64,000 bases of DNA, from positions 20,516,801-20,580,800 of the forward strand of contig OX438753.1 of assembly GCA_949316235.1 (NCBI GenBank), given 5' to 3'. This stretch comes from Oegoconia quadripuncta. Lineage: Eukaryota > Arthropoda > Insecta > Lepidoptera > Autostichidae. Of this stretch, positions 2,744 to 60,798 are shown in pieces (position 1 is the first letter of the stretch; the number at the start of each line of letters is the position of its first letter). The notes beneath the pieces are model-generated. The model ran no database searches, was not told the origin of the DNA, and saw only the letters and a program-made list of their open reading frames with translations. Position numbers and translations under genes: made by a program.

Positions 2744-2748
2744 AAAAC
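2744..2748. other. Target site duplication of BEL/Pao element (left)
   Basis: AAAAC lies immediately before the left LTR and is repeated exactly after the right LTR (9331-9335). A 5-bp duplication fits BEL/Pao integrases. Confidence 0.85.
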
Positions 2749-3109: not shown

Positions 3110-3113
3110 TTTT

Positions 3114-3133
3114 TTGGTCCATTTGAGCCGCGG
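3114..3133 (+). other. Candidate primer binding site
   Basis: Five bases after the left LTR the sequence reads TGGTCCATTTGAGCC, beginning with the TGG expected of a complement to a tRNA CCA end and containing a TΨC-arm-like 'TTTGAGCC'. The priming tRNA was not identified. Confidence 0.45.
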
Positions 3134-3164
3134 ATCCTACACAGAAGAAACGAAAATAATCAAG

Positions 3165-14185: not shown

Positions 14186-14199
14186 GATTCATTTCCACT

Positions 14200-14535
14200 T
14201 TACTTGACTTTGAGCCTTCGAATTTGAGCCTTCGTCTTTGAGCCTTCGATTTTGAGCCTTCGACTTTGAGCCTTCGACTTTGAGCTTTCGACTTTGAGTC
14301 TTCAACTTTGAGTCTTCGACTTTTAGCCTTCGACTTTTAGCCTTCGACTTTGAGCCTTCGACTTTGAGCCTTCGACTTTGAGCCTTCGAATTTGAGCCTT
14401 CGTCTTTGAGCCTTCGACTTTGAGCCTTCGAATTTGAGCCTTCGTCTTTGAGCCTTTGACTTTGAGCCTTCGACTTTGAGCCTTCGACTTTGAATTTCGA
14501 ATTTGAATCTTCGACATTGACTCTTCGACTTCGAC
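14200..14535. repeat. 14-bp minisatellite
   Basis: More than 20 units of a 14-bp motif (about gactttgagccttc) with scattered substitutions. Because three 14-bp units equal 42 bases, all three antisense frames stay open and give K/S/R-rich 14-residue repeats; these are artefacts, not proteins. The same motif recurs at 16930-17230. Confidence 0.95.
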
Positions 14536-30800: not shown

Positions 30801-31432
30801 CTGACAGCATGGCGGTCTTACAAGCCCTGAACTGCAATAGCATAACTTCTGGGCTCATCTTAGAGTGTCACCAATCTCTGATGGAGGTGTGCTCGCACAA
30901 CGACATAACTCTTCAGTGGATTAAGGGACACAGTGGATCAAGGGGCAACGACGCTGCGGATGAGCTGGCGAGAAGGGGATCTGCAATGATGGTGCAGGGC
31001 CCTGAGCCAATCGTCCCACTGCCGTTCTGCTAAATCAAATCATGGCTTCATCAGCGAACTACATCGCTACACAACAATGACTGGACCATAAGGGTAGACT
31101 GCAGGCAAACCAGAGCGGCAATCCCAGCTCGGAGTGTGCGCCTTACTCGACAACTTATGCGCCTCTCCAAGGCGCAGCTGTGTTTGGTCACGGGTACACT
31201 AACAGGTCACGGTCATTACAACAAACATCTGTTTAATATAGGTGTTACAGACAGCCCCCTGTGCAGAGCGTGCATGGAGGCCGAAGAATCAGCCGCCCAC
31301 GTGCTCCTGGAGTGCGAGGAGGTGGCCTTACATCGAGCCACCCACCTTGGAAGACCGGAGTCTCTCCCCGAAGCCTGTGGCAACATCCCAAAGTTGCTCG
31401 GTTTCCTCCAAGAACTTGGGTGGCAGTATTAG
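27817..31432 (+). pseudogene. LINE ORF2: endonuclease, reverse transcriptase, RNase H (one frameshift, one stop)
   Basis: Starts at the ATG at 27817 in frame 1 with the endonuclease opening (VQINLHHSR, IQEPW). The frame then shifts between about 28062 and 28083 into the frame that stays open to 31033. There the endonuclease continues (DSNAHHPLWG, SDHRWI), followed by RT (KAAGPDG, KSFRPISLTSFLLKTLE, GCPQGGVLSPLLWN, catalytic YADD at 29828-29839) and RNase H (FTDGSK, AECMG, DSMAVLQAL, GNDAADELA). A TAA at 31031-31033 interrupts the frame. It reopens in the same frame to a C-X2-C-X-H-X-C-like end (CRACM..AAHVLLEC) finishing at 31432. Both lesions lie in otherwise conserved coding, so the copy is a recently inactivated element. 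Confidence 0.9.
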
Positions 31433-38154: not shown

Positions 38155-39450
38155 CTAAGTATCGGGAATTTGTCAATAAAACAAAAAATACAAATTATTC
38201 ATCTAAATTTATTTTATCGCCTTCAAAGTAGGCCCCATCGCTTGCAATACAACATCTCCACCGCTTCACCCAGTCTTCCATACATTTTTCATAGGCTATT
38301 TGCGGTATGGCCTTTAGCTCATTCAGCGAATTTTCTTTTATGGCTTCTATCGACTCAAAACGTTTTCCTCGAAGTGGTAATTTTAACTTGGGAAATAAAA
38401 AAAAGTCAGACGGAGCCATATCAGGTGAATATGGTGCTTGGTCGAGAACTTTTGTTGAATTTTTCGCTAAAAACTCTTTCACTATAATGGCTGTGTGTGA
38501 TGGTGCATTATCATGGTGCAGCATCCATGAGTTGTGTTGCCACAAATCTGGACGTTTTCGGCGGATACTCTCACGCAAACGCTTCATGACGCCTAAATAA
38601 TATTCTTTATTCACTGTTTCTCCCTCTGGAAGGAATTCGGAGTGAACCACACCACGGTAGTCAAAAAAAACTGTCAGCATCACCTTGATTTTGGAGCGAC
38701 TTTGCCGCGGTTTTTTGGGTTTCGGCTCGTTTTCGAGACGCCATTCTGAAGACTGTTGGCTTGTTTGCATGTCGTACTCATAAACCCATGTCTCGTCGCC
38801 AGTTATTATACGTTTCATAAAGGTCGGATCCGTAGAAGCTCGGGAAACCATGTCTTCAGCGACATGCTTTCGCTGCGCTTTTTGAACAAAATTGAGCTCT
38901 TTTGGAACTAGTCGAGCGGCGACGCGTTTCATGCCTAAAATGTCAATGAGAATGTTGTGGACGGACTTAAAAGATATGTTCACCTCACTAGCCAACTCTC
39001 TCAGACTCATACGTCGATTTTCGAGCACTAGCTTCTTGATTCTGTCGATGTTTTCTTTGGTCGTAGCGGTTGAAGGTCTACCAGAACGAGGCAAGTCTAC
39101 TACTACTTCTCGGCCTTCTTTAAAAGCCTTATACCATTCATAAGCCCTTGTTTTCGATATACACGATTCGCCGTAGGTATTTCGCAACATTTTTAGTGAT
39201 TCACCACATGAAATATCATTTGAAACACAAAATTTAAGGCACACTCTTTGTTCAACAATATTTTCCATTGTAAAAATCGCCGAGGACTCAAAACTATGAC
39301 CAACAAAAAGTGTAGTTTAAAACAAATTAAATGACAGATCCCGCTCAAATTTTGCGCGCTAAATCAGTACAGTGCTACCAACATGCAGTAAAAAAATTAG
39401 AACAACCTCTTTTACGCGTGTCTTTTTATTGACATATTCCCGATACTTTT
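38155..39450 (-). mobile_element. Complete mariner transposon
   Basis: 1,296 bp flanked by TA at 38153-38154 and 39451-39452. The inverted ends share 'agtatcgggaat.tgtcaataaaa' (24 of 27 matching, by eye). It contains one intact transposase gene on the minus strand. The size is standard for mariner. Confidence 0.95.
38195..39268 (-). CDS. Mariner transposase, intact (357 aa)
   Basis: Cut-and-paste DDD transposase. The N-terminal half carries two helix-turn-helix units for TIR binding (YEWYKAFKEG, then SLRELASEVNIS), joined by a basic GRPS linker (residues 62-65, AT-hook-like). The catalytic triad is D158 (ITGDETW), D253 (HHDNAPSHT) and D288 (YSPDMAPSDFF), with 34 residues between the last two, the canonical DD34D of mariner. 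The WVPKEL-equivalent linker reads LVPKEL (120-125). The length is close to that usual for the family (about 345-360). No stop or frameshift is present. The antisense open frames inside it are shadows. The subfamily was not determined. Confidence 0.95.
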   Translation of the reverse strand: MENIVEQRVCLKFCVSNDISCGESLKMLRNTYGESCISKTRAYEWYKAFKEGREVVVDLPRSGRPSTATTKENIDRIKKLVLENRRMSLRELASEVNISFKSVHNILIDILGMKRVAARLVPKELNFVQKAQRKHVAEDMVSRASTDPTFMKRIITGDETWVYEYDMQTSQQSSEWRLENEPKPKKPRQSRSKIKVMLTVFFDYRGVVHSEFLPEGETVNKEYYLGVMKRLRESIRRKRPDLWQHNSWMLHHDNAPSHTAIIVKEFLAKNSTKVLDQAPYSPDMAPSDFFLFPKLKLPLRGKRFESIEAIKENSLNELKAIPQIAYEKCMEDWVKRWRCCIASDGAYFEGDKINLDE

Positions 39451-45351: not shown

Positions 45352-45543
45352 CTATTTTTTTTTAATGCATAACGGGTTAATACTTGACCTCAATCACACC
45401 TGATGGTACGTGAAGATGAGGTCGAAGATGGAAGCGTACTGACCCGGAAACCCCAACACATTTGGGGGACTGGCTATCTTATCTCTGACAACCCGAACCA
45501 ACAATGCTATTAATATTGCTGCTTGGCGGCAGATTTAGATAAG
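45352..45543 (-). repeat. SINE B, antisense, part 1 (split by the Polinton)
   Basis: From the poly-T tail to 'cttggcggcagatttagataag', then cut by the 15-kb element. It resumes at 60542 after a repeat of GATAAG. The family consensus reads straight through 'agatttagataagatgg', so the pre-insertion site can be reconstructed. Confidence 0.9.
45538..45543. other. Polinton target site duplication (left), GATAAG
   Basis: Repeated exactly at 60542-60547. Six bases is the usual duplication length of Polinton integrases. Confidence 0.95.
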
Positions 45544-46280
45544 AGTAGTACGTATTCGAGAGTTCTGGACCAGCCCCGGGCCCTCCCCCTAAAAAAAGGT
45601 CACCACGGTGTGTTCCCCCTTTCACGGTCTCATTGGCGGCTTTAATTGGGTCGTTATTGACGGATTTGCCAGTTAACTTTGTTTGCTAATTATAATGGCT
45701 AGTAAAAAATTGTCCTTATCTAACCTAATAATAGGTTCACACATAAATCAAGTGGACGATAACTCCTCGGCTTTTGGCGCTTTTGTGTACCTACAACTGA
45801 TACAAGTCTGAACTTGTTCATGGTAAGCATAGCGATTACAGCAGGTGTATGTTTTTAATATGGAAAAAAATTAAATTTATTGTCAGCAATGAAACTGCCT
45901 TTCCATTATTCTTTTATTTAGTTTTCTAATTTATGATCAATTTATATTTATGTCAGTAGTCGACAAAAAACATGCACCTTTTACGGTGAATAGAAACTTC
46001 GTAATTTAAGTTATTTCATTATAGTATACCATTTTTTCCTAGTAAGATTTGGAAACAGGTGAGACTTTTTTGCTCGTCACGTTGGAATGTGTACGCCTTT
46101 AGATGAAATGATAACGATCACCCACTGTCAAATTTATTTATGTTAGTTATTCTTTAGATCGCCATCTGCGGCATACGCAGTATTTTTTCTTAATTTTTTA
46201 ATTCGATTCAATAATAAATATGTAGGGTTAATTCTTAATAGCTACTACGTATGTGGTATCACCACTCTACCTGGATAGGG

Positions 46281-46288
46281 TATTTAAA
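46281..46288 (+). promoter_or_regulatory. TATA-like element of the TIR gene
   Basis: TATTTAAA about 105 bases upstream of the start codon at 46394. Mirrored in the right TIR at 59797-59804. Inferred from position and sequence only. Confidence 0.5.
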
Positions 46289-46393
46289 GCGAGACGGCTT
46301 GTACAGCACCACAGTCCAAATTCGATCGCCCGCCTCGCCTCGAGACACAGTCGTACATTTCATAGTGAAAAGTGTTAAACTACGCTTTCTGTC

Positions 46394-46970
46394 ATGTCGG
46401 TAAGTTTTTGTCTGTAACTACATTGTTTATGTGTTGTCTACTTTACCTGGACGATCTGTTTCGATGCAATTGCTTGACCTAACCTTCGTTTTCTGCTCGT
46501 TTCAGACGTCGATTCCTGACAGTGATTACACCTTTAAGAACTATTACTTTCCTACTGCCGATCTAAGCGACGATGATGAAACTCAAGATCCTCCTGCCTT
46601 GAAGGTCAAGCAAAACATTGCTAAGAGAAACATTGATTGTTTCTTTGAGAAGCCCAAGAAAAAGAGGGTCCGACTACAGTCTTCCAATATTGCCCAAGCT
46701 AACGGAGAAGGAACTTCATACATTTCATCGAATAATGATGACGGATCCTCAGCGAGTCATCTCATTAAAATAGAAGTGTATGAGATGAAAAAGTTGAAAG
46801 ATGTTCAACCAATTGATTACTGGAAATATGCAGATGTTCGTGTTAAATATTACGCCTCAGAAGACGACAAGCATTACCGAAATGTAAGAGATTTAATTTA
46901 CAATATAACAAAACAGGTGGCAACGAAGACCGACTGCACAAAGTACTACATAACAGCGGATAAGAAATAA
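46394..46970 (+). CDS. TIR-encoded two-exon protein, left copy (156 aa, unknown function)
   Basis: Exon 1 is only two codons (46394-46399). The intron 46400-46505 (106 nt) starts GTAAGT and ends with a pyrimidine tract and TTTCAG, and the phase is kept. Exon 2 runs 46506-46970. An unspliced frame also opens upstream but has no ATG in a credible context, so splicing decides the start. The protein is hydrophilic: an acidic stretch (SDDDE), a basic patch resembling a nuclear signal (KPKKKRVR), a serine-rich linker, then a conserved-looking C-terminal third (VYEMKKLKD..DYWKYADVRVKYY). No known domain was recognised. AATAAA at 47079-47084 may end the transcript. An identical gene sits in the other TIR, so the element carries two doses. 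Confidence 0.85.
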
Positions 46971-47113
46971 TTCCTGGAATAGCCCGTTTCTTGCGACTCC
47001 CAATAGAGCAACGTTATAATTTATGGGTTTCTTCTTAGCACATTAACTGTCGCGACGCAGACTCTACTGAAAAACAGCAATAAATTTTTCGTTCCCCACC
47101 GTTTTATACCTGT

Positions 47114-47121
47114 CTATAAGA
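47114..47121 (+). promoter_or_regulatory. TATA-like element for the shared exon, left
   Basis: CTATAAGA 60-67 bases before the ATG at 47181. The mirrored copy (58964-58971) lies upstream of the polymerase start, so both genes would have the same promoter. Confidence 0.45.
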
Positions 47122-47180
47122 TACACCTCATATAAGCCACATGCCACCGAGAGATACATTTGTCTAACGCAGGCAGAAGG

Positions 47181-47492
47181 ATGGCACACTTCGAAACTCA
47201 ATACGATGACCAACTGGTACGACTGTGTCTCGAAGCCGAACAAGACGAAATCGACCGACAACTCTATGAATTCCATGAAGAAAACCTAAATAATCTCCGC
47301 CAGTGGGCCAATTACGATTATGGTGGGTATTCAAGACCCTCACCTCCCCCTATACTAACATTTCTGCAGCGGCCAGCGAACCCACTCATGTCATTGGAAC
47401 AGGAAGAAGAAGTTTATGAAACGTCGTGGGCGTCTGAAAAATTGTTTTCATTATCACCGGGTGTCTATAGTCCAACCCCGCAGATAGATTAG
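47181..47492 (+). CDS. TIR-border protein (103 aa, unknown function)
   Basis: Start chosen at the ATG at 47181, the first ATG in frame, which lies inside the TIR. The first 30 codons are TIR sequence and are shared with the polymerase gene at the other end of the element; from codon 31 the sequence is unique. Residues about 9-45 are acidic and heptad-like (LVRLCLEAEQDEIDRQLYEF), suggesting a short helix or coiled coil. The second half is proline- and glutamate-rich (SRPSPPP, SLEQEEEVYE). No known domain. It converges on the leftward gene cluster, and the 143-bp gap between has polyadenylation-type AATAAA signals for both directions (near 47529 and, antisense, near 47625). Confidence 0.75.
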   Translation: MAHFETQYDDQLVRLCLEAEQDEIDRQLYEFHEENLNNLRQWANYDYGGYSRPSPPPILTFLQRPANPLMSLEQEEEVYETSWASEKLFSLSPGVYSPTPQID

Positions 47493-47635
47493 TTAGCTAC
47501 AATATTGTATTATAATGTTTAATTAGAAAATAAATAAAGTAAAACTGTAATTCTGATGTTTCATTATCTTCACTCTTCTATATCAAAATAGGATAATGTA
47601 AATAAAAAACAGATAATTGGTAAAATAAATTTATT

Positions 47636-48073
47636 TCAAAAAATGGTTTTAAATATTTTATTTATGAATATATCGTTATACAAAGGAATATCGCAAAAAT
47701 CTCTTAAAAACTCTGACATGCTCATATTCATAAACTTAAAGTACAGATACACTAAACAGTATTCACCACAAACAGAAGTTAAGTGACTTTGAAGAATTTT
47801 ATTATTGTAAAACCATTTCCGAGTATTTCTTTTCAAAAACGATTTATGGTGGCCGGTAGGCTTTCTACCATATGAATCAAAATATTCACCGATACCATTA
47901 GCATTGATATGAATGGCTACCCAATGTGATCCCGATTTTGTATCAGGATCCAAGTTAGAAATAAAGTAAGTGGGTGCTTCTATGTACATTGGTATTCTGT
48001 TAGCAGGGAACACGTTAAATTCTAGACTGTGATTTATCTTTTTCATAAATAGTCTAATTTCGTGTGTATCCAT
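47636..48073 (-). CDS. Adenain-like cysteine protease (145 aa)
   Basis: Predicted maturation protease of the virion. The catalytic residues can be placed by pattern: H50 in GSHWVAI, D66 in EYFDSYG, Q95 and C102 in LQSHLTSVCGEYC, the order H-D/E-Q-C of adenovirus protease and Ulp1-type peptidases. It is shorter than adenovirus protease (about 200 residues) because the N-terminal part is reduced, but the core is complete. It is the last gene of the leftward cluster, 109 bp downstream of the major capsid gene. Confidence 0.85.
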   Translation of the reverse strand: MDTHEIRLFMKKINHSLEFNVFPANRIPMYIEAPTYFISNLDPDTKSGSHWVAIHINANGIGEYFDSYGRKPTGHHKSFLKRNTRKWFYNNKILQSHLTSVCGEYCLVYLYFKFMNMSMSEFLRDFCDIPLYNDIFINKIFKTIF

Positions 48074-48182
48074 TATTGAAATACTTTCTTAAATACATAC
48101 ATTAAGGTAGTTTAACGGATAATGATGAAAAATATTATATGGAAATCTTATATACTATAATAGATACAAAAATGCTGAATAC

Positions 48183-49496
48183 TTAACTATTATAATCTAC
48201 ACTCACATCTCTATTTTTATTAATTTCTATAACATTGTCAAACTCTGCGTACACAATGCAGTTAAGAGTTTTTGCAAGAGCTGATTCAAATTGGACTTCT
48301 ATTCTAACACACCCATGTTTTATCAAATTCCAGTGGGAACTTGAGTTAGCAGATAGATCAGGAGTTAAATCAAATGCCATTAAGCAGTATCCATTTGCAT
48401 AGTCCTCAATCGATATGGAATTGCCTTCATTCAAAAAGTGAATACCTGTTCCAGTATATAACGTATGGTAACTACTCGTAAACACACCGCTACGGTATGA
48501 TGGCATTAGGGTTTTAGAAGGAATTTGTTGCCCATCTACATACAAGCTAAATACATTTATATCATGATTATCGAAGTTAAATGGATTGGTATTGAAAGTA
48601 CCATTAAAAGCAACATTATCAACAAATCCGATAATACATCTTTTCGGCACCTGACCAAGAAATACATTGTCAATTGTTTTTCCACGGACTCCTGATGGAA
48701 TAGTTAAAACTTTAACTTCAGCGCGAGTAATTGGATATTTTGCAGTTGTAGTGGTTAAAACTTTTTGATGAGCGAGTAAAACGGATGGATTTATTCTTGC
48801 CTTTCGCAATATAAGAGTAGCGCTATCAATTTGAACTTTATATTTTGAATTCACTGATGATGACATTAAATTAAAAGTGTCTTTGTTACGTACTAATTTA
48901 ACACGTATTTCTACCCCATTTATTAAGAACTTTTCTTGATTAAATAGATCACCGTGCAAATGTCCAATCATTTCAACTGATTTGCCGTCTTTTACCCGTT
49001 GATGTCTTTTGTGAAAGCCCTTGTTGTTGTCATCACATGAATCCATCTTTGAAGCTGTATCTTCGTACCACATACCACAAGTCAAGTGTGATTGTTTTGC
49101 CGCTGGTCCATAATTAAGTAGAGTCTCAATATAAGCCCGATAAGCATATGTGTTATTAGGAGGTGATACAAGTTTTTGATTTAGATAAACATCTAATTGG
49201 TTGAAAAGTGAATGCAACCAATTATTAACAGGTGCTGTCTTCTCATCAGGGGGAGGAGTGGTAGAATCTAGGTTTATAATTTTAGCTTTAACATGAAGGA
49301 GGGTGTGTGACAAATCAATGTAGTCATCTCCACTTCCTGGCATAACAAATTCAATTGGTCCTTCATCACTTAGCGATGATATCGGTGTACAATGAATCCA
49401 TTGCCCACTCTCAATACTTGTCTGTGTTGATGGTATAGCAAAAAGATCTAACTCTGATTTAACACACTCACAAGAATTATTATGAAGAAACGACAT
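48183..49496 (-). CDS. Putative major capsid protein, hexon-like (437 aa)
   Basis: Largest structural ORF of the cluster, starting two bases after the preceding gene ends. It is predicted as the double jelly-roll major capsid protein by its size, its position between the core-protein and protease genes, and sequence features that fit the hexon-like family of arthropod Polintons: an N-terminal 'ESGQWIHCTPISSL', 'FVMPGSGDDYIDL', 'NNWLHSLFNQLDVYLN' and a later beta-rich half. No signal peptide or membrane segment. The fold cannot be verified here; a structure prediction would be decisive. No internal stops. Confidence 0.75.
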   Translation of the reverse strand: MSFLHNNSCECVKSELDLFAIPSTQTSIESGQWIHCTPISSLSDEGPIEFVMPGSGDDYIDLSHTLLHVKAKIINLDSTTPPPDEKTAPVNNWLHSLFNQLDVYLNQKLVSPPNNTYAYRAYIETLLNYGPAAKQSHLTCGMWYEDTASKMDSCDDNNKGFHKRHQRVKDGKSVEMIGHLHGDLFNQEKFLINGVEIRVKLVRNKDTFNLMSSSVNSKYKVQIDSATLILRKARINPSVLLAHQKVLTTTTAKYPITRAEVKVLTIPSGVRGKTIDNVFLGQVPKRCIIGFVDNVAFNGTFNTNPFNFDNHDINVFSLYVDGQQIPSKTLMPSYRSGVFTSSYHTLYTGTGIHFLNEGNSISIEDYANGYCLMAFDLTPDLSANSSSHWNLIKHGCVRIEVQFESALAKTLNCIVYAEFDNVIEINKNRDVSVDYNS

Positions 49497-49498
49497 AG

Positions 49499-49948
49499 TT
49501 AATTTGAAAATATATCTTTTATATTACTTTTTTTCTTCCTGTCAACTCCTCTTCGCTTAGATGGTTTCAATGAAATGGTAGGTTTCTTTCGAAGTCTCTT
49601 GATTTTATACCCTGAGCCAGACATAAGCGAATCAATTTTGTTATCCGCTTTTCGTTTTAAATTAGCACTTGCTTCTTTGAGTCGAGACTTAATTGATTCC
49701 CCCATTGGTTGTGCCCTGACCATATCTGATAATAAACCTACTCCTGCGCTTAATGCCTCTTTCCCGACTGTCTTGGCACCACTTGCTATGAGTGGAAATA
49801 CAGATCTAAATAGTCCGCCCAAAAAACTTCCAATGCCGTGACCACGTTGATGCGGTACACCTCTGTATATGATACCTACACCTGATCCAGCTTGATTAGA
49901 ATAATAATGATGATAAGGACAAACGATATTATCACGCTTATAATTCAT
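49499..49948 (-). CDS. pX-like basic core protein (149 aa)
   Basis: Small basic protein. It has a glycine-rich hydrophobic stretch (GSGVGIIYRGVPHQRGHGIG, followed by SFLGGLFRSVFPLI) at about residues 21-55 and a strongly basic C-terminus (KRLRKKP, KPSKRRGVDRKKKS). This composition and the 'RG.PHQRGHGIGSFLGGLFR' pattern resemble adenovirus core protein X/mu-type proteins described for adintoviruses. A role in condensing DNA in the particle, possibly after protease cleavage at Gly-containing sites, is inference. Its ATG overlaps the stop of the upstream gene (ATGA, 49945-49948). Confidence 0.7.
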   Translation of the reverse strand: MNYKRDNIVCPYHHYYSNQAGSGVGIIYRGVPHQRGHGIGSFLGGLFRSVFPLIASGAKTVGKEALSAGVGLLSDMVRAQPMGESIKSRLKEASANLKRKADNKIDSLMSGSGYKIKRLRKKPTISLKPSKRRGVDRKKKSNIKDIFSN

Positions 49949-50754
49949 TTTATTCGTTTAAAATGTAGTTTAACACATGCAGTTCCAAACTGGAATGGAA
50001 CTCTATTACCAATGCTTGTTCTTATATCTATTTCGATTATGTCAAATTCTCTGCGCATTACTGGAAGATAATGAATTGGAGATAATACGTGCATTTTATA
50101 AGCACCATAGTTGTATTTTGATGGATCTAGCGGTATGATTCTAAATAATGAGGTCATTACATCTCCAACTATTTGAGGATGAATAATATCAGAGTAAATA
50201 AATAGCTGTGATGGTAATCCTAATTGTAAGTTCGCTGGGTATTTAGCGTATGGATCCGCAATTAAATTTGTATATGGCTCGAAACCGAGTTGAAGATTTA
50301 ATGTAGGTGACAAAATCAACGATGATACACTGCGAGTTAAGTTCGTAACAGTGATAAGTTTCGAGTCGTTATCAATTTGGAATGCCACTTGATTTTGTAG
50401 GAGGCTATTTTCATTAAATACTTTTAGAAAATTGTTGATGTTATCATAAGGAAATGAAGGAATTTGGGATTTATATTCCACTGATATTAATGATTCGTCA
50501 TCTCCTTCGACTATTACTTTCTTCTTGACGAAAAGAATATTCTCATTTTCTTGGACGTTAAATATAGCACAGGGATAATGAAATTCAGCTAATCCTACAA
50601 CCCATTCTCCTTCCAATTGAACAGTTTTAGGTAACTTTGTTACAAAGTTGGCGGTTGTATTTTGGGGGAAATATGCAGTTGAACTATTGCTTGGCAAAGT
50701 AAGATAAAAACTATCTTCCGTCATATTGTTTCTAAGTTTAATGCGGATATCCAA
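49945..50754 (-). CDS. Putative penton-like (minor capsid) protein (269 aa)
   Basis: Begins inside the 3' end of the integrase ORF (34-bp overlap) and ends on the ATG of the pX-like gene. Beta-rich with 'FYLTLPSNSSTAYFPQNT', 'EGEWVVGLAEFHYPC' and a C-terminal 'REFDIIEIDIR...FQFGTACVKLHF', features of the single jelly-roll minor capsid protein of Polintons and adintoviruses, which fills the capsid vertices. The assignment rests on these patterns and on neighbourhood; it is less certain than that of the enzymes. No stops. Confidence 0.7.
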   Translation of the reverse strand: MDIRIKLRNNMTEDSFYLTLPSNSSTAYFPQNTTANFVTKLPKTVQLEGEWVVGLAEFHYPCAIFNVQENENILFVKKKVIVEGDDESLISVEYKSQIPSFPYDNINNFLKVFNENSLLQNQVAFQIDNDSKLITVTNLTRSVSSLILSPTLNLQLGFEPYTNLIADPYAKYPANLQLGLPSQLFIYSDIIHPQIVGDVMTSLFRIIPLDPSKYNYGAYKMHVLSPIHYLPVMRREFDIIEIDIRTSIGNRVPFQFGTACVKLHFKRIK

Positions 50755-51803
50755 CTATTAAATTTATTAGGATATCCTTTCCATTTGACTAGCACTTCCT
50801 TTCTGTTGCCAGAATAGCGAGTGCGTATTATTTTATCTATTTTGTAGGTAATAGTGGGGTCATAGATTACTTTTTGTAATTCCCTTCCATAAAATGTACC
50901 AATTATTGATTCATTTTGTAGATCTTTTAATTTGTAAACCAACCAAGGAAGTCTTTTTACAATGGATTCTATTACAAATATTTCATCGGACCAATTTGTT
51001 TCATAACCTTTCTGGAAAATGTGTTTATATTTCGTTATTCTAACATAATCACCTACTTTAAATGGTAATCGGTCTGAAGTGTTTAAGTTGTACCTATCAT
51101 ATAAATTAGACCATACTGTCATTATATTACTGGAATTCACATCACTTGGACACATTTTTATACTTGAATGGACACTGTGATTATAAGAATATAATAAATC
51201 TTGTAAAATATCAACATACCTATACGTATTATTATGTGTGAAATATCGCCACATTTTCATTTTTAGGGTTCTTTGAAATCTTTCCACAATACTGGCCTTT
51301 ATGTCCGGATTGTTAGTTGTATAGTAATTAATATTTTTCTTTTTGAAGTACTGGTTTACATCTCTTGAAACAAATTCTGTACCTTTATCAGATTGTATAT
51401 GTCTAGGAGTAGCTTTCGCTTCAATAAATATGCTTTCAAAACATATCTTTACAGTTTTAGAATTTTTCTTTTTCATAGGTCTCGCAAATGCATACTTACT
51501 AAACACATCAATAACACAGAGAATATAATTAAATCCATCATTATATTGATTGTATGTTCGCATGTCACTTAAATCTGCTTGCCAGAGTTCATTAAAATTA
51601 GATAAAATATATTTATTTCTAGGAAATCGCCTATTGACAGGTTTATGTAAAGTATAAGTTTCTTGGGATTGTAACCACTTCTTTACATCCTTTTCATTCA
51701 TTTTCCCTTGCATAGCTTTCGTCAATTTTTCAATGCTACTGTATCCAGCTGGATGAGAGACATCATAATAAATTTTATTTATATTATCTATATGGGAGTC
51801 CAT
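50721..51803 (-). CDS. Retroviral-type integrase with C-terminal chromodomain (360 aa)
   Basis: Catalyses insertion of the element's DNA ends. The RNase H-fold core has D77 (WQADLSDM), D139 (IQSDKGTEF) and E174 (SIVERFQRTL), i.e. D,D34E within one residue. The C-terminus (about 303-350) is a chromodomain (YKIDKIIRTRY...VLVKWKGYPNKFNSWI), which in related elements binds modified histone tails and steers insertion. The upstream part is helical without an obvious HHCC zinc finger. The ORF overlaps its neighbours at both ends (16 bp upstream, 34 bp downstream). The 6-bp duplication flanking the element is its expected product. Confidence 0.93.
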   Translation of the reverse strand: MDSHIDNINKIYYDVSHPAGYSSIEKLTKAMQGKMNEKDVKKWLQSQETYTLHKPVNRRFPRNKYILSNFNELWQADLSDMRTYNQYNDGFNYILCVIDVFSKYAFARPMKKKNSKTVKICFESIFIEAKATPRHIQSDKGTEFVSRDVNQYFKKKNINYYTTNNPDIKASIVERFQRTLKMKMWRYFTHNNTYRYVDILQDLLYSYNHSVHSSIKMCPSDVNSSNIMTVWSNLYDRYNLNTSDRLPFKVGDYVRITKYKHIFQKGYETNWSDEIFVIESIVKRLPWLVYKLKDLQNESIIGTFYGRELQKVIYDPTITYKIDKIIRTRYSGNRKEVLVKWKGYPNKFNSWISALNLETI

Positions 51804-52555
51804 TTCTCCCAGTCAAGTTTTCTTTTGTGAAACAAGCCACCAGGTTTTTGCTTTGGCGTTTTAATTTGAGCTGGATCGTCTTTCTCTAAATCAGATGAAT
51901 GAATATTATTAATATATTCAAGCGTTTCTGGGTTACCTATACAAGATAACGGTATTTTTATATCCCTTAAAGCTGAAGCAAACTTCTCCCAGCCTAATGG
52001 TTTTGGGCGTCGTAATGGTCTTAGGGCATCGTTCACTAAATCCACAATATTACTGTTATCAATAACTTCGTCATTGATTACAACATGACCATTGGTATCC
52101 CATTTAATAATATTTTCATGATCCAATATACCTTCCAATAACAACTCGCCCTTCTTTTTATATGTTTTTGGTATATACTTAAATAAATAATTTGGAGTGT
52201 AACGTGATGAGATATGTTTTTCCGCTGCTACGTCTTCCTCTATTCTTGGCAATTCTGGAACTATTGTTTTAACATCACTTTCTTCCTTTTTAATAGTCTT
52301 AAAAACATCATACATAGAGTCATCTGTAACTATTGGTAATTTAATGGGATGACGTTCTTTATTAGCAAAATGTAAATATCTTTGTAAAATTTGCGAGTAC
52401 TGTGTCCACTTCTCACGATCATCAATTTTACTGTGTAAGATTTTACTCATTTCCTCATCAAGACGGGATAAGGGCTTTTCATGAACATGGTTACTGTCTC
52501 TAATCCTTTCTAGGATGTGGGGTTCCACAAGTATCATTTTCTTTGTATGTTCCAT
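51788..52555 (-). CDS. Conserved Polinton protein of unknown function (255 aa)
   Basis: Hydrophilic and charged, no membrane segment. It starts 'MILVEPHILERI' after a short lead and has a middle block (ILDHENIIKWDTNGHVVINDEVIDNSNIVDLVNDALRPLRRPKP shortened here to its key parts 'IKWDTNGHVVI' and 'GWEKFASAL') and a lysine/tryptophan-rich end (KLDWEKW). I recognise the general type from arthropod Polintons, where it accompanies the capsid genes, but know of no demonstrated role. The stop lies inside the integrase start. Confidence 0.8.
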   Translation of the reverse strand: MEHTKKMILVEPHILERIRDSNHVHEKPLSRLDEEMSKILHSKIDDREKWTQYSQILQRYLHFANKERHPIKLPIVTDDSMYDVFKTIKKEESDVKTIVPELPRIEEDVAAEKHISSRYTPNYLFKYIPKTYKKKGELLLEGILDHENIIKWDTNGHVVINDEVIDNSNIVDLVNDALRPLRRPKPLGWEKFASALRDIKIPLSCIGNPETLEYINNIHSSDLEKDDPAQIKTPKQKPGGLFHKRKLDWEKWTPI

Positions 52556-52563
52556 TGTAATTT

Positions 52564-52893
52564 TTACTTATTTAGAAACGAACTTAGTAATCCACTGAGA
52601 ACGGAACCTAAAATAATGGGTAGGAATGCTCCACCTTTCTGTATAATAATTCGTTTTCGAGAGTTACTTTTACCTTTAGACACCAATTTTCTCAATATAG
52701 TTTTGTATTTATTCAACTTGGATTTATCTTGATTCTTCAGAGGAATTTTACCATTTAAAATATTATAAATGCATTCACATAAACAATTTATTTCTTCATC
52801 CTTACAAACCTTCAATAAAGCTGTACAATACTTAGGTTTGAGTGTATGTAATGCTTTTAATAAGTCTAGATGCGTCGTCACTCTACCAACCAT
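52564..52893 (-). CDS. Small conserved Polinton protein (109 aa) with hydrophobic glycine-rich tail
   Basis: The N-terminal half is a helical, cysteine-bearing segment (LKALHTLKPKYCTALLKVC, then INCLCECIYNILNGKIPL). A basic linker follows, and the last 25 residues are hydrophobic and glycine-containing (QKGGAFLPIILGSVLSGLL), suggesting membrane contact or virion packing. This arrangement is common in arthropod Polintons; the function is unknown to me. The ORF at 52945-53163 is a paralogue of its first half. Confidence 0.8.
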   Translation of the reverse strand: MVGRVTTHLDLLKALHTLKPKYCTALLKVCKDEEINCLCECIYNILNGKIPLKNQDKSKLNKYKTILRKLVSKGKSNSRKRIIIQKGGAFLPIILGSVLSGLLSSFLNK

Positions 52894-52944
52894 TGTAAAC
52901 GACTGATAATATTTTTACAATGTTGTTAATATTAGAAGCAAATA

Positions 52945-53163
52945 CTAAGCAATGTTTGTTGAAAAGAAACAATGTAGATTTAAGAAGCTAAATTTTGATT
53001 CCCGGACTTCCTTTATGGGGATTTCATCCAAAGTATCTAAAATACTTTCACAGATACGATTTATTTTGTCATCAGTACATTCTTTTAATAGAGCTTTGCG
53101 ATATTTAGGTGTTAGTACTTGTAAAACTAACTCTCGATCTCGTGTCACTGCTTCTTCAGACAT
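52945..53163 (-). CDS. Short paralogue of the 109-aa protein (72 aa)
   Basis: Its start codon overlaps the ATPase stop (TAATG, 53161-53165). Residues 15-50 (LQVLTPKYRKALLKEC, INRICESILDTLDEIPI) align with the N-terminal half of the 109-residue neighbour, but the basic linker and hydrophobic tail are missing and replaced by a short phenylalanine-rich end. Probably a tandem duplicate, truncated or specialised. It could also be a dying copy. Confidence 0.65.
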   Translation of the reverse strand: MSEEAVTRDRELVLQVLTPKYRKALLKECTDDKINRICESILDTLDEIPIKEVRESKFSFLNLHCFFSTNIA

Positions 53164-53825
53164 TATCTACTGTTAACTGTAATTTTATCACGATACGTAT
53201 TATATTTATAACCCTTTTTCGATACATAAACTACACAATTGCTATTGAGGGGAAATATCTTAGTCTTAAAACGACACATATCGTCTGTATTTTGCTTTAA
53301 ATCAATCATTAGATAGCCATGTGCTTCTGACGTAGCATCTTTATAAGCTTCTTCTACGAACTTAGAGTTATCTGGGAACACTTGGCGCGCTAAATGGCGT
53401 ATTTGTGTTCTATCCCGGGGATTTTTAAAATATACTATGTAACTTGAATTTAAAGAAATGTCACGTTGTCCTCTGCCTTGATGAAATAAATTTTGTGTTA
53501 TATAAAACACGCTAAGGTTTCTATGATGACTACCTTTAGTAAAAATGTCCACTATACGACCATCGGATTCTCTCATAAGATCATCTATTATAAGTAATTG
53601 TGGTTGCTTCCCATCAAACATGTTTAAATCCGGTATACCTTGACTGTAGTCGACGTTGTTCAAATTATATAAAGGTTGCATTTCATCGTAACACCATACT
53701 ACTCGTGAAAAATTAGTGTTACATATTTCTTTCATAAATTTAAGAAAATTAGTGACAAAGTTTGATTTACCACACCCACTAGGACCTGCTACTATAGCTG
53801 TGAAGGGGTGTATGAAATGAATCAT
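53163..53825 (-). CDS. FtsK/HerA-type genome-packaging ATPase (220 aa)
   Basis: P-loop ATPase expected to pump the element's DNA into capsids. Walker A is GPSGCGKS (residues 14-21), Walker B is LLIIDD (77-82), with a sensor-like ITQN at 109-112. The compact size is that of Polinton and adenovirus-group packaging ATPases. It is the first gene of the leftward morphogenesis cluster, so its upstream gap (53826-54546) probably holds the cluster's promoter. Confidence 0.93.
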   Translation of the reverse strand: MIHFIHPFTAIVAGPSGCGKSNFVTNFLKFMKEICNTNFSRVVWCYDEMQPLYNLNNVDYSQGIPDLNMFDGKQPQLLIIDDLMRESDGRIVDIFTKGSHHRNLSVFYITQNLFHQGRGQRDISLNSSYIVYFKNPRDRTQIRHLARQVFPDNSKFVEEAYKDATSEAHGYLMIDLKQNTDDMCRFKTKIFPLNSNCVVYVSKKGYKYNTYRDKITVNSR

Positions 53826-54546
53826 TTTTCATTATTGAGCGTGTTACTTGCAGGCTGTAGAATGGGGGAATGGAATAAAAACAATAAAACACTTATTATA
53901 AACTTTAAATTTTTTACTATATCGCTTCAAAAAGGTGTTATGGCTATGGAGAAGAAGCGACCTAAGAAACTCCACAACAACACATCTTTTAAAATTAGTC
54001 ATCATACAGTATTATTATTATATGAGTGTCGATAAATATATTCATATACTTCCCACATATACACAGAAATTTCATTTAATTTTTACTTTGATTTTATCAG
54101 CATATATTATTATTATAAGCTCCCAATGTCCCACTGCTGGACAAAGGCCTCCTCTCCCTCATATATCAGCATATTATCAAAGTAAAAAAAAAAAAAACAA
54201 TAAAATCAATTTAACATCTCAATTAGTATTATCTTTCATTTTAAAATTACAAAAATAATAATTAACTATGTTTAATTTACTTATACATTTTTAGATTTTC
54301 TATACACATTAGTTGCTCAACAACCTGAGTTCTAGGACCCCCACAAAATACTATATACGTTATACTACGACTACAAAACTATTTTCATACAATGAAGCGA
54401 AACAAATTGCAAAAATAGTGCTACACGCTACATACGCATGTAATAAAAATTTGACACAATAGGTTAATTAATTATATAAGGCTACGACGTGTGAATAATA
54501 ACTTTTTTATATAAAACTAAAAAATGTTCCTGACGTAAAAAATAAC
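53826..54546. promoter_or_regulatory. Gap between packaging cluster and polymerase; probable promoter and terminator region
   Basis: 720 bp of very AT-rich sequence, the only large gap in the element. No coding frame of quality. It contains a scrap of a host LINE (54104-54160) with possible target duplications (see that entry). Regulatory function is inferred from position. Confidence 0.4.
54090..54185 (-). repeat. Tiny retroposon scrap nested in the Polinton
   Basis: 'cccaatgtcccactgctggacaaaggcctcctc' is the antisense of the LINE tail also seen at 35905 and 61700. It is bracketed by 'tatcagcatat' on both sides (about 54095-54105 and 54164-54174) and, outside that, by inverted 'tttttactttgat'/'atcaaagtaaaaa'. 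An 11-bp direct repeat suggests a true insertion after the Polinton formed. Confidence 0.55.
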
Positions 54547-57500
54547 TTAAAAGTGTTCACTTTTTCTTAATTTATAGTGTCCCCAAGCTAGAGTATCAGT
54601 ACAATTTTCCAGTAAATGCCTTTTGGTGTCATTATGCGATAAAGAAATCTTATTAATTTTTTGGGTATAAATTACATGTTTAATAGATTTGAATCGCAAC
54701 ATCTCAGAAATGTGAATCTTTTTTTGGAATAAGCAACTTTTATATTGCTCCATATTAAAATTCTTTGTCACATTTTTATTGACACCTTTTGCTTTTGCTG
54801 TAAATTTGTGGTCTACATCAATCGCATACATTTTTGATCTCAATCCAACAAACTCTCTAAATATTTTTCCATTATTTTCATCTTTAAAGAGACCTAGTTT
54901 CTTCCTATTAACTAGCGGTAACCCATACTTATTATCCATGGGATAATCAGATGTATCAAAGTAAGTCAATAAATCGGGCTTTATGTCATAATATATATTT
55001 TTACTATATATCTGATAGATAAGACTATCGGTATCAGTATAAAGTAGTTTTAAATTCTTTTGAAATTTAATTTTCATATAGTCATAGTGAAAGTCATACA
55101 TTAATGTTTTCGAAATATCTAATATGCAAAAACCTAAATATATAGGCTTGTTATACAGCAATTTAGTTTTTCTTAATTGTATAGCTACCAACGATTCTGA
55201 GAAAATTGAAAGACTGTGAAATTCAGGCCTCGATATTAATGATTGAGCACCTTCAACTTTACCTCGATTCTCCCAATGTGTGAGTAGTTTTACATTAACC
55301 CGTTTTTCGATATTTTCCATAGTTTTTCCAAAGACAGAGTTATTCATTAGTTTATAAAAATCCTTTTCAAAGTCTGAGACCGCTAAAGTACGCATATTTG
55401 TGTTTAAATCGATGTATTTTTTCAGCCATATACTTTGTTTAAATTTAAGTACTCGGTGTACTTTCGTTAATTGTAAACCATATTTTAAACATTGTTTTAG
55501 ATTCCTATAATGGATGATGTATTTAGTTTTATTGTTTAAATTTAGTATTAATTTTTTTTCTTTGCTATTTTCAGAGCATAAATTATCCGGACAGAAAGGT
55601 AGATCGGAATGAGAATCGTGTAAATTATCAGGATATTGTAAATCAACTTCTAACACGAATCCATATTCTGAATCATCTGAAACGTTGAAATTAGTATTTA
55701 CATCAACCCATTCAAACTCACCGATGGGGAGATATTGTGACATAGCCCAACCGTACAGGTTATTTGCATCTAGGTAGATCAAATAGGATGAAGGTAATTC
55801 ATTATTGTAGTCTTCCATGAACATATTATTAGCTTTCGCGTGTCTATTGCTACATTGAGAAATACCGCCTCTAATACCTTTTTTTATGAACGCAATTTTG
55901 GCAAAATCGGTCAGAAGTTCTAGGTTTACTTTTGTATACTTCAACATGGCATCCCAACTCAGACCGGGCGCAGTAAAATAATGAGCAGGGTCTAAATCAT
56001 AAGTAGATAAACATAAACTTCTGAAATTCTCAAATATGTCAGTTAGTAATAAGACGTCGGTTTTTAAATATAAATCTGAGTAATCAGACATATTTTTACA
56101 ATTAAAATGATTCCATACGTCTTCTGCGTGTTTATAACTTTCCAGTGAAACATGCTCATTTACCAGCGAGTTATAAAATTTATCTTGGGCTGGAAGATAA
56201 TCTTGTTTTAATATATTAAATGAAGTCATATATTCATAAGGGAAAATGCCTTTCCTAGTCAAACGCTTAAAATCTTCTTGATCCGGAAAATTTTTATGTA
56301 GTTCATGAAATTTGTCGGTTTTAAGATTTTGTGCTAACTTTTCCAAACTACACGACATGAATTTAAAAGAATCTAAAAATCTCAAGGTCATAGTATTATT
56401 TAAAACATTAATTTTTTTTGAAAATGATATATACTTTTCCTTGTTTTGGGGAATTATTTCAATATCTCCCTCATCAAAATTCAGCGCGTGAACAATGAAA
56501 TGTGCATCATAATTATTTAAGTTGTGCAAAAAGACAGGAACAAACCGGGGAGCTCTATAATTAGAAGCACACATCGAGTGAGCAACTCCTTTGTACAAGC
56601 CAGTATACCAATCACAATATACCGTGGAATCATTTTTCAATTCACTTTCACAAATAAAACATACCCTACTTTGTAACACATCCCGATTATTTTCGGTGGT
56701 CAATGGCACTGGACATATCTGAAAGGAGTTTTTTCGACAGATGTTAATTAAATCATTTTTAAGAAATTTCATAAAAACCTGGGCACAATCTTCACCCGTA
56801 TACTTTCTATAAACAGAAAGTTGATCATTGTATGAACATTTAATATAATAGCCGAAACTATACACTTCGTGTTTTTGTATATTGGCTGTGAAGGATTTAG
56901 ATGGGTCGTTTTTACATGTTTGTATGGGCTTTAAAAATGATTCGAAATCTGCGTACACTACAAACGGAATTTTTAATTTTTTCTCATAATTGTTGAAGGC
57001 TAATCTGTTATTAGGTAGCGGTTCTCCACACCATATGGTTTTCCTCGGCTTGTCATTTGGTAAATCAGTTTTTATATGATTACAATCGAACTGATAGTGA
57101 TTGTTTAACTGTTCCTGTGTTGGAAAATACAGCAAACAGCCGTCACAGATATAAACAGCGCCGTGTCTCGCAGTGATTTGATTACTAACTAATCTAGATA
57201 AATTCTTTATGTAGCAGTAATGGCCACAGTTACTAGCACCATTTTTCAAATATAATAAATTAATGTGAGTTTCTTTTCGATGTTTCGTGAAGTATAAAGG
57301 CCCAATGATTTGGTTTTTTTTCTCTTTAGCAACATATTCTAAACCGAAAACGTTTAAGCTGATATTATTTAGCTGTTCAAATTTATGAATATCTTTAAGT
57401 TTCATCGGGAAAGGAATGTTTGTGAAATTTAATTTGTTTTTATGACTTAAATATGACGTTACTCTGTCAGAATGTTGAGCAGCTGGATATAGTGCGGAAA

Positions 57501-58904
57501 GTACAGCCCATTGAAAACATTGTTGGTCATTATTTTTAACATTTACGATGGCTTTTTTGTGTTTTATATCAAGAGGCAAGTCTATATAGGAGGAACCGCG
57601 TAAAGGGTTAAATTTATTAACATTCATATCAAGATATATGATTTTCTCCAAACTCCAACCGCTGTCTTTCTTTTCAAAATTACTAACTTTTTCAGAAATT
57701 TCTTTAAAAATTAATGAAATTATGCTATCAGGATCATCCCCCACGCAATAGCTATAATTAAAAGTTTGAAAGTCAAAAGAATTGTGTAAATCTTTTGTTT
57801 GTTGCACAAAATCGGCATGTAAAATAAAATTTACCTTGATGAGGGTTAAATCACTAATGCATTTGCTCATCAGTTGTAATAAAGTGGATTTTATTCCTAA
57901 TAGAAATGATTCAGGCGTTTCGACTTCTAAATGTAATATATTGGAGTCTGAAGTTATTCGGTAAGTTTTTACCCTTTGTCCAAATGCACTCTCAATAACC
58001 TGAACATTTGCTAAGTTATCGTGAACAGTAATTAAATTATTTTTATGTAAATTACTCTTTAAATGGCTAGAAAAATATCGCTTGCTGACTGACACTTTAC
58101 ATATGGTACATTCTACTATTAGTTTATCTAAGTAACTCACAGTTGGGGGCACTATTCTTGATGTTGATGGTTCTTGATAATCTTGACATTCTAGTGTTCG
58201 ACGAGTCTTCGAAGCAGTTCCTTCACATGATTCCGATTTTCTTTTCCCGCCAACTTGAGAACTCGATCTGTAAAGAGGTGCATAGGTTAATAAGTATAGG
58301 TTAAAGTAAACATTCAAAATTAATATTACAATCGAGAACTCGATTATAATACTCACATTGCACAGCTTGCAATATGCTTGCATTAGCATAACACCATCAA
58401 TTTCATCGGTCTCTCCAGTAGTCACATAATTTTTTTTTGAATGACCACGACAAGGTGTATAATAGGGCATAATCTCTAAGTCCTCCAACATGGCATTAGG
58501 CAGTTTGTGACTAATATACCACATTCTAATACAACGATGAAATTTACTTATTATAAGTAATTTATTTAATGATAGTATTTCATCAGTCGACAAAGACAAC
58601 ATTGTTCTAAATTCAAAACTACGAATTAATTGTTAGTGATACCAATACCCCAGAACAACTCGTTTATATACCGACCCATACTCGCCCCCTCTACATTAGT
58701 TTGGTACATGTTCATACAAGTTACTCGTTCGGGTATAGAATCATAACAATAAAAACAAGGGAAAAAAAAAACTTACGATTTTGTTGGTCCTTGGTTTGCG
58801 ACATCATCGTAGAGTTCATAGAGTTGTCGGTCGATTTCGTCTTGTTCGGCTTCGAGACACAGTCGTACCAGTTGGTCATCGTATTGAGTTTCGAAGTGTG
58901 CCAT
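54547..58904 (-). CDS. PolB: Protein-primed family B DNA polymerase (1395 aa if spliced as read)
   Basis: Replicates the element from its ends. Exon 1 (58777-58904) lies mostly in the right TIR and ends at donor GTAAGT. The intron 58607-58776 (170 nt) ends TTTGAATTTAG. Exon 2 starts at 58606 and keeps the frame into the 1351-codon ORF whose own first ATG is at 58600-58602. Counting from that ATG: a C2H2-like finger near 165-186 (CTICK...HLKSNLH), a possible cysteine-peptidase-like block near 358-470 (NDQQCFQWAVL, GHYCYIKN), another finger near 486-507, 3'-5' exonuclease motifs DFESF (552), DSFKFMSC (744) and YLKTDVLLLTD (845), polymerase motifs A DANNLYGWAMS (945), B KLMNNSVFGKTMEN (1084) and C YTDTDS (1188), then LRSKMYA (1254). 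All catalytic aspartates are present. A second intron-like stretch (58268-58356) has good splice signals but would break the frame. Confidence 0.93.
58268..58356 (-). other. Candidate second intron in PolB (frame-breaking)
   Basis: On the minus strand this 89-nt stretch starts GTGAGT and ends with a pyrimidine tract and CTCTTTACAG, is AT-rich, and when translated gives an unlikely hydrophobic run (IIIEFSIVILIL). Removing it shifts frame and leads to a stop 14 codons on, giving a 140-residue product. Kept, the polymerase is full length. A weak alternative donor (GTGCAA, 58363-58368) would restore phase. Confidence 0.5.
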
Positions 58905-60541
58905 CCTTCTGCCTGCGTTAGACAAATGTATCTCTCGGTGGCATGTGGCTTATATGAGGTGTATCTTATAGACAGGTATAAAACGGTGGGGAACGAAAAA
59001 TTTATTGCTGTTTTTCAGTAGAGTCTGCGTCGCGACAGTTAATGTGCTAAGAAGAAACCCATAAATTATAACGTTGCTCTATTGGGAGTCGCAAGAAACG
59101 GGCTATTCCAGGAATTATTTCTTATCCGCTGTTATGTAGTACTTTGTGCAGTCGGTCTTCGTTGCCACCTGTTTTGTTATATTGTAAATTAAATCTCTTA
59201 CATTTCGGTAATGCTTGTCGTCTTCTGAGGCGTAATATTTAACACGAACATCTGCATATTTCCAGTAATCAATTGGTTGAACATCTTTCAACTTTTTCAT
59301 CTCATACACTTCTATTTTAATGAGATGACTCGCTGAGGATCCGTCATCATTATTCGATGAAATGTATGAAGTTCCTTCTCCGTTAGCTTGGGCAATATTG
59401 GAAGACTGTAGTCGGACCCTCTTTTTCTTGGGCTTCTCAAAGAAACAATCAATGTTTCTCTTAGCAATGTTTTGCTTGACCTTCAAGGCAGGAGGATCTT
59501 GAGTTTCATCATCGTCGCTTAGATCGGCAGTAGGAAAGTAATAGTTCTTAAAGGTGTAATCACTGTCAGGAATCGACGTCTGAAACGAGCAGAAAACGAA
59601 GGTTAGGTCAAGCAATTGCATCGAAACAGATCGTCCAGGTAAAGTAGACAACACATAAACAATGTAGTTACAGACAAAAACTTACCGACATGACAGAAAG
59701 CGTAGTTTAACACTTTTCACTATGAAATGTACGACTGTGTCTCGAGGCGAGGCGGGCGATCGAATTTGGACTGTGGTGCTGTACAAGCCGTCTCGCTTTA
59801 AATACCCTATCCAGGTAGAGTGGTGATACCACATACGTAGTAGCTATTAAGAATTAACCCTACATATTTATTATTGAATCGAATTAAAAAATTAAGAAAA
59901 AATACTGCGTATGCCGCAGATGGCGATCTAAAGAATAACTAACATAAATAAATTTGACAGTGGGTGATCGTTATCATTTCATCTAAAGGCGTACACATTC
60001 CAACGTGACGAGCAAAAAAGTCTCACCTGTTTCCAAATCTTACTAGGAAAAAATGGTATACTATAATGAAATAACTTAAATTACGAAGTTTCTATTCACC
60101 GTAAAAGGTGCATGTTTTTTGTCGACTACTGACATAAATATAAATTGATCATAAATTAGAAAACTAAATAAAAGAATAATGGAAAGGCAGTTTCATTGCT
60201 GACAATAAATTTAATTTTTTTCCATATTAAAAACATACACCTGCTGTAATCGCTATGCTTACCATGAACAAGTTCAGACTTGTATCAGTTGTAGGTACAC
60301 AAAAGCGCCAAAAGCCGAGGAGTTATCGTCCACTTGATTTATGTGTGAACCTATTATTAGGTTAGATAAGGACAATTTTTTACTAGCCATTATAATTAGC
60401 AAACAAAGTTAACTGGCAAATCCGTCAATAACGACCCAATTAAAGCCGCCAATGAGACCGTGAAAGGGGGAACACACCGTGGTGACCTTTTTTTAGGGGG
60501 AGGGCCCGGGGCTGGTCCAGAACTCTCGAATACGTACTACT
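58815..60541 (-). repeat. Polinton right terminal inverted repeat (1,727 bp)
   Basis: Mirror of 45544-47270, ending CGTACTACT at 60541, followed by GATAAG. It contains the second copy of the 156-aa gene, a TATA-like box at 59797-59804, and 90 coding bases of the polymerase first exon. Confidence 0.95.
59115..59691 (-). CDS. TIR-encoded two-exon protein, right copy (156 aa)
   Basis: Identical by eye to the left copy: exon 1 59686-59691, intron 59580-59685 (106 nt, GTAAGT...TTTCAG), exon 2 59115-59579. Transcribed toward the polymerase gene, whose first exon starts 211 bp downstream. See the left copy for its sequence features. Two identical copies imply gene conversion between the repeats during replication, or a very recent insertion. 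Confidence 0.85.
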
Positions 60542-60547
60542 GATAAG
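60542..60547. other. Polinton target site duplication (right), GATAAG
   Basis: Exact repeat of 45538-45543. Confidence 0.95.
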
Positions 60548-60597
60548 ATGGGGTAGTTAGCCAGGCGGACATTTAAAATGCCCTACCACCAACCAAA
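60542..60597 (-). repeat. SINE B, antisense, part 2
   Basis: 'gataagatggggtagttagccaggcggacatttaaaatgccctaccaccaacc' continues the SINE interrupted at 45543. The tRNA head is missing beyond this point. Confidence 0.9.
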
Positions 60598-60798
60598 AAC
60601 CTATATTAACTTTGAGGACCATATTACAGAATAAAGCTGGAGTCCGAGTATTATTATCATCTCTGTCCCGCCGCAAAAATATATACTTATCTATACCTTT
60701 TCAACTGTTTTTAATTCGAGATCATGACTTAATCATGGTTCGGTTCATATGGGTCTTATTGTCAATAAAGGGTTCCATAAAGGGTTCAAGTAAAGGGA

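Follow-up and report, generated by a model that had tools for sequence, protein, structure and literature searches.

The window analysed here, a stretch of 64,000 nucleotides from the lepidopteran Oegoconia quadripuncta (GCA_949316235.1, contig OX438753.1, positions 20,516,801 to 20,580,800), contains one complete element of about 15,000 bases at positions 45544-60541. With a probability of roughly 70%, we read this element as an integrated Maverick/Polinton (adintovirus-like) genome from a family of about 125 near-identical copies, a number obtained by extrapolation, which spread very recently by linear-DNA copying with a protein-primed DNA polymerase B (PolB) and concomitant homogenisation of the terminal inverted repeats (TIRs). 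The amplification of the family was recent, and its copies may still be active or form particles.

Copies of the element and their insertion sites

Both TIRs of the window element end in the tip AGTAGTACG, and each is bordered by the 6-bp duplication GATAAG. The TIRs (45544-47270 and 58815-60541) were identical at 1727 of 1727 positions, with the first mismatch at the inner edge, at position 47271. The original prediction, made from the letters alone, had described an apparently complete, very young Polinton/adintovirus-like element with GATAAG duplications and 1,727-bp inverted repeats that did not differ in the stretches compared. The duplications were indeed present directly outside both tips, and the identity of the repeats held over their full alignment. 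The 6-bp duplication, the AGTAGT ends, the rve integrase with its chromodomain and the protease bore out the assignment to the Polintons and adintoviruses, and the identical TIRs, the open frames and the many near-identical copies in the same genome agreed with a complete and very young element. Beyond that prediction, the window copy is one of a large family and is not unusual. Its insertion site (flanks 45424-45543 and 60548-60661) resembles a repeat that occurs widely among the genomes of Lepidoptera.

The window is part of contig C12 of the assembly, which was searched over 622.6 Mb in 45 contigs. A query with the predicted major capsid protein (MCP) gave 205 candidates, and all 96 places that were scored were identical at 437 of 437 amino acids and carried no stop. 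The exact 30-nt tip was found 277 times in the genome (141 forward and 136 reverse), as compared with 0/0 for the reversed control. Pairing of the first 100 tips listed (contigs C1-C6), from which ten redundant tips were omitted, yielded 45 elements. Thirty-seven of these were 14,988-15,000 bp long, and the remaining eight measured 4.3, 14.2, 14.4, 15.1, 15.2, 15.6, 18.4, and 21.5 kb. Extrapolated from this ratio, some 125 elements would carry an exact tip at each end, as compared with the 205 MCP candidates. At G000 C3:4327507-4331830, the tips were only 4324 bp apart, with another tip at 4333910, and this is possibly an internally deleted, non-autonomous derivative. The tip pairs 21.5 kb (G000 C1:16658346-16679844) and 18.4 kb (C3:12425800-12444221) apart are perhaps copies with later insertions.

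All 31 copies that were read at both ends, including the one in the window, had a 6-bp duplication, and all 31 duplications were different. Thirty were visible at once, and the last only after reading beyond a reiterated end. A pyrimidine-purine centre was present in 20 of the 31, whereas roughly one in four would be expected by a crude estimate (p = 4e-6). Another 20 copies were then examined, 18 of which yielded both tips. Adjacent duplications were seen in 15 of the 18; in the other three, TIR sequence occupied the fetched flank at one end or at both, and the duplication was unreadable there. Target-site duplications of 6 bp and TIRs that end in a short repeat such as (AGT)2, both of which are present here, are among the criteria of the Maverick/Polinton group. 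The others are an rve integrase, a protein-primed PolB, an adenain/Ulp1-type protease, a packaging ATPase, and a double jelly-roll MCP with a penton.

Divergence was measured in 30 copies against the window over 4311 bp each (46686-50996). A total of 21 differences in 129,330 bases was found at 18 sites, corresponding to a mean of 0.7 per copy, and 16 of the 30 copies had none. Seven of the 18 variable sites were located within the 953 bp outside the named genes. Seven of the nine private changes inside genes altered or stopped the protein, and both of the variants that recurred among copies were synonymous. One interior variant, at window position 49853, was common to L007 and L030 despite their different TIR haplotypes, which may reflect either recurrent mutation or recombination between copies.

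Terminal inverted repeats and errors at the ends

The TIR pairs were compared in the 29 copies for which the fetched pieces covered both TIRs in full. Variants occurred in both TIRs of a copy 21 times as aligned (20 if a split insertion in L046 is counted as one), and 12 times in one TIR only. Identical TIR pairs were found in 18 of the 29 copies as fetched, compared with a mean of 4.1 and a maximum of 11 for random pairing (10,000 times). Since one end of L046/047 extends by a further two outer units beyond the fetched fragment, 17 of 29 is the safer count. Changes in length were also shared by the two TIRs (1842/1842, 1725/1725, and 1728/1728), and one inserted base was present in both TIRs of L125/126. 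L046/047 was left out of the equal-length pairs, since its printed 1941/1941 reflects cut fragments and its ends have five versus three tips.

At TIR position 156, the variant was present in both TIRs of 11 copies, in one TIR of 2, and in neither of 36, for a total of 49 copies. The 2 discordant copies compare with 18 expected if the TIRs were independent (P = 6e-8), although this value is only a guide because the copies are related. The stronger argument for homogenisation is the number of separate events seen in both TIRs, several of which are length changes. Of the 19 carrier occurrences of the multi-copy variants at positions 118, 156, and 410, 17 involved both TIRs, or 17 of 21 if position 328, whose variant was seen in one TIR only, is added. 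The statement that every multi-copy TIR variant is present in both TIRs was not fully borne out by 20 further copies, and the weaker form was kept.

The outermost letters of the element showed two kinds of irregularity. An extra AGT was located between the duplication and the tip in two tips (L050 and L072). Genome-wide, six exact tips were preceded by AGT, comprising these two, two internal junctions in L066/067, and two duplications that end in AGT by chance. In addition, tandem reiterations of the outer TIR were found in 6 of the 49 copies, with four unit lengths. The 107-bp unit was present in L046/047 (five and three tips) and L060/061 (two tips at one end), the 115-bp unit at both ends of L066/067, the 131-bp unit at both ends of L119/120 and one end of L127, and the 256-bp unit at both ends of L107/108. 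For the 131- and 256-bp units, the fetched sequence contained no more than some 60 bp of the outer unit, and the length was therefore deduced from where the unit ends. In the reiterations, the inner unit starts at the tip after a filler of no letter, T, or GT, which are the end letters of AGT.

The shared TIR variants, the extra AGT, and the tip-anchored reiterations fit end-initiated replication with one end templating the other. Each new copy would be made as linear DNA by the protein-primed PolB of the element, with synthesis starting opposite the AGTAGT ends and including a jump-back step. The displaced single strand may pair its own two TIRs, or an equivalent step may copy one end onto the other. 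Adenoviruses form a panhandle and correct their ends; they are not known to have an rve integrase or to form such families in a genome. By end-to-end templating, a mutation in one TIR would reach both, and occasional slips near the end would add an extra AGT or repeat the outer 107-256 bp in tandem. Insertion would then be carried out by the chromodomain integrase, at 6-bp targets among which a pyrimidine-purine centre is over-represented, and the gene set makes it plausible that the DNA is packaged into particles. Cut-and-paste transposition alone was rejected, since it would not carry variants and length changes to both TIRs. The identity of the TIRs is probably in part a product of replication, and not of youth alone. 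A more detailed version can be offered tentatively, at slightly less than even odds: an ongoing or very recent germline invasion, with extrachromosomal synthesis of the copies as linear protein-primed DNA, whose ends record TIR copying, slips by AGT units during jump-back, and terminal reiterations caused by template-end switching.

The age of the copies was estimated from the 12 differences limited to one TIR (11 substitutions and one indel), which amount to 1.2e-4 per base over 100,820 bases. The absence of TIR differences in the window element is typical. With a Heliconius value of 2.9e-9 per site and generation, the mean age would be about 41,000 generations, with a Poisson range of 21,000-72,000, in a sample that favours young copies.

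Predicted genes and other features of the window

Nine minus-strand frames (PRO, MCP-like, p149, penton-like, INT, p255, p109, ATPase, and PolB) lie between the TIRs and occupy 9858 of the 11,544 bp there (Table 1). The core gene frames of the window element were without interruption, as the original prediction had stated, and the longest open frame between the TIRs had 1361 codons, as compared with at most 226 among 200 base-shuffled sequences. Chance was set aside as an explanation in view of this shuffled maximum and of the zero count of the reversed tip pattern.

The identities that had been proposed for the genes fared unevenly. The integrase was supported by Pfam, with 49 bits for rve (cut-off 32.6) and 36.2 bits for Chromo (cut-off 25.1), and alignment A2, of the integrase and its relative from contig L001 (see below), matched retroviral integrase structures. 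This protein combines the rve integrase of Mavericks/Polintons with the C-terminal chromodomain of adintoviruses. The adenain/Ulp1-type protease of Mavericks/Polintons is likewise supported, by the match to S273R of African swine fever virus, with a Pfam C48 score below the cut-off. The ATPase frame contained the Walker-A-like motif GPSGCGKS and reached one generic Pfam P-loop family barely above the cut-off, and its matches in PDB were unspecific. The predicted capsid proteins were matched by no profile, and the capsid and penton names are proposed from similarity, size, and gene order. No profile matched p149.

In the PolB frame, exonuclease and polymerase motifs of family B were picked out by eye. 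The first ~118 codons of the frame (58250-58602, minus strand) may be an intron or absent, and apparent intron ends are present there. Cys and His motifs precede the exonuclease motifs. They are placed where PMC11071308 describes a viral OTU domain and were matched by no profile; we consider them a lead. Apparent intron ends were also observed inside the TIR frame at 46431-46970 (plus strand), which had no match in Pfam or PHROGs.

Table 1. Coordinates of the element and its predicted features in the window
Feature	Position	Strand	Basis
Target-site duplication GATAAG, left	45538..45543	none	Directly outside left tip
Left TIR (protease end), 1727 bp, tip AGTAGTACG	45544..47270	+	Sequence comparison
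179-codon open frame in left TIR, first codon GTG, possibly spliced	46431..46970	+	Frame list
Protease (Ulp1/adenain-like), 145 aa	47636..48073	-	S273R, E 1.4e-4; C48 below cut-off
Predicted MCP, 437 aa	48183..49496	-	Position, size, and similarity
p149, small and basic, perhaps a virion protein	49499..49948	-	Open frame
Predicted penton-like protein, initial codon TTG, earliest Met at residue 11	49945..50754	-	Open frame
Integrase, rve core and C-terminal chromodomain, 360 aa	50721..51803	-	Pfam; structure alignment
p255	51788..52555	-	Open frame
p109, hydrophobic C-terminus	52564..52893	-	Open frame
Predicted packaging ATPase, 220 aa	53163..53825	-	Walker-like motifs; generic P-loop Pfam match
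Predicted protein-primed PolB, 1351-codon frame	54547..58602	-	Motifs by eye
Right TIR (polymerase end), identical to left TIR, with mirror frame 59115-59654	58815..60541	-	
Target-site duplication GATAAG, right	60542..60547	none	Directly outside right tip

A single contig, L001, was recovered from IMG/VR with a degenerate PolB motif. Its positions 522-6092 contain a PolB-like frame, an integrase-like frame beside it, and a further frame of 245 amino acids, and it is apparently an uncharacterised relative. The PolB frames shared 38.6% over 1101 positions, and the integrase-like frame was 29.6% identical to the integrase over 284 positions. IMG/VR protein scans with the PolB, MCP, ATPase, and INT queries gave no relative, and the L001 record had no match to the MCP in a scan without a positive control.

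Other mobile elements were present elsewhere in the window. A 1931-codon open frame at 3114-8909 (plus strand) belongs to a Pao/BEL retrotransposon with Peptidase_A17, RVT_1, and integrase zinc-binding domains, and a 282-codon frame at 13393-14241 (plus strand) has a Helitron-like N-terminal domain. A non-LTR retrotransposon frame of 1011 codons with endonuclease, reverse transcriptase, and RNase H is located at 27998-31033 (plus strand), and a mariner-type transposase frame of 357 codons, without a stop, at 38195-39268 (minus strand).

Alternative explanations and significance

Several observations weigh against the favoured reading of a very recently spread Maverick family copied as linear, protein-primed DNA. 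The homogenisation of the TIRs was imperfect, with discordant TIRs at position 156 in L097/098 and L107/108 and at position 328 in L088 and L093, and with unequal ends in L046/047 (five versus three tips) and L060/061 (two versus one). The copies were chosen from rows with a perfect MCP match, so that the sample leans toward young and intact copies, and one of the 30 still had a stop within the stretch of the integrase gene that the comparison covered. The predicted MCP had no match in Pfam, PHROGs, NCBIfam profiles, or PDB sequences, and the same four sources gave nothing that names a polymerase for the PolB frame. The structure models of the MCP (one sequence, pLDDT 29.9) and of the PolB core (two sequences, pLDDT 28.9) were too poor for use. 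Finally, gene conversion after insertion, the main rival, would also produce shared TIR variants. Here, the TIR pairs, as inverted repeats 11.5 kb apart, would have been evened in the chromosome, with the copies spread by some other copying route, and private variants in both TIRs (e.g., L050 and L070) could postdate insertion. Since 12 one-TIR differences remain in the 29 copies, however, such conversion was not fast. It does not easily explain the variants at 118, 156, and 410 either, whose presence in both TIRs in 17 of 19 occurrences indicates that homogenisation mostly preceded the spread, and it leaves unexplained the reiterations with an inner unit starting exactly at the tip. We regard it as unlikely.

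Repeated infections by free virus, rather than amplification within the germ line, would suit the virus-like gene set and the integration of several TIR haplotypes. Nothing in the present data separates this route from the germ-line route, and we consider it somewhat unlikely. The assembler might also have multiplied one or a few copies, or collapsed the TIRs, as common long reads would hardly exceed the length of the element, and its copies scarcely differ; yet each of 31 copies had its own duplication, and private variants, one-TIR differences, and differing TIR lengths were observed among the copies, which leaves an artefact very improbable. An old family in which purifying selection or use by the host, and not recent spread, maintains identity would agree with both multi-copy variants in the 4.3-kb piece being synonymous. 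However, most private changes inside genes alter or stop the protein (7/9), the TIR pairs differ by so little, and the non-gene DNA is nearly as uniform, as indicated by the 7 of 18 variable sites in its 953 bp. We find this explanation barely credible.

Sf Maverick 1 and 2 from Spodoptera frugiperda cells are lepidopteran Mavericks and, by description, resemble the window element in their eight small tandem open reading frames and PolB, and in their ATPase, adenain-like protease, and integrase with a C-terminal chromodomain; for them, a parvovirus-like CAP is reported, and no homolog of the PY capsid protein that Mavericks usually have (PMC5803895). For the insect (group II) Mavericks, 12 intact insect elements were reported, and the absence of a VSR-like insertion in PolB is a criterion of the group (PMC10328495). 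The definition of the alpha adintoviruses includes a PolB with an OTU-like domain and an integrase with a chromodomain (PMC11071296), to which the window element corresponds in the chromodomain by Pfam and may correspond in an OTU-like part by motif position. A hexon that BLASTp recognises reciprocally is a further criterion of adintoviruses. Vertebrate Mavericks have a mean size of 16.9 kb, the same 6-bp duplications and (AGT)2 ends, and the core genes that are predicted here, whereas their TIRs measure 46-1447 bp, as compared with the 1727 bp found here (PMC8097293). They have at most 38 intact copies per genome, with 96% of copies defective, as against at least 96 copies with an open, identical capsid frame here, although these numbers are not strictly comparable, since the 96 rests on the capsid frame and not on the integrity of the full copy (PMC8097293). 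The inverted terminal repeats and the terminal trinucleotide repeat with its proposed jump-back are shared with adenovirus, in whose replication jump-back is described (PMC4974454), and jump-back is expected for the vertebrate Mavericks from their polymerase and (AGT)2 ends (PMC8097293).

A search by title and abstract, mostly of openly accessible papers, found no report on homogenisation of Maverick TIRs or on such a burst. Intact insect Mavericks are already known (PMC10328495; PMC5803895), and what is new is the evidence on how Mavericks replicate. With some 100 or more near-identical copies that differ in their TIR haplotypes, the expectation of protein priming and jump-back becomes testable from sequence. 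If the more detailed version, with copies made outside the chromosome, is true, this single genome would provide sequence evidence that an animal Maverick replicates like an adenovirus. As a host, O. quadripuncta also lends itself to studies of activity, silencing, insertion polymorphism, and possible particles.

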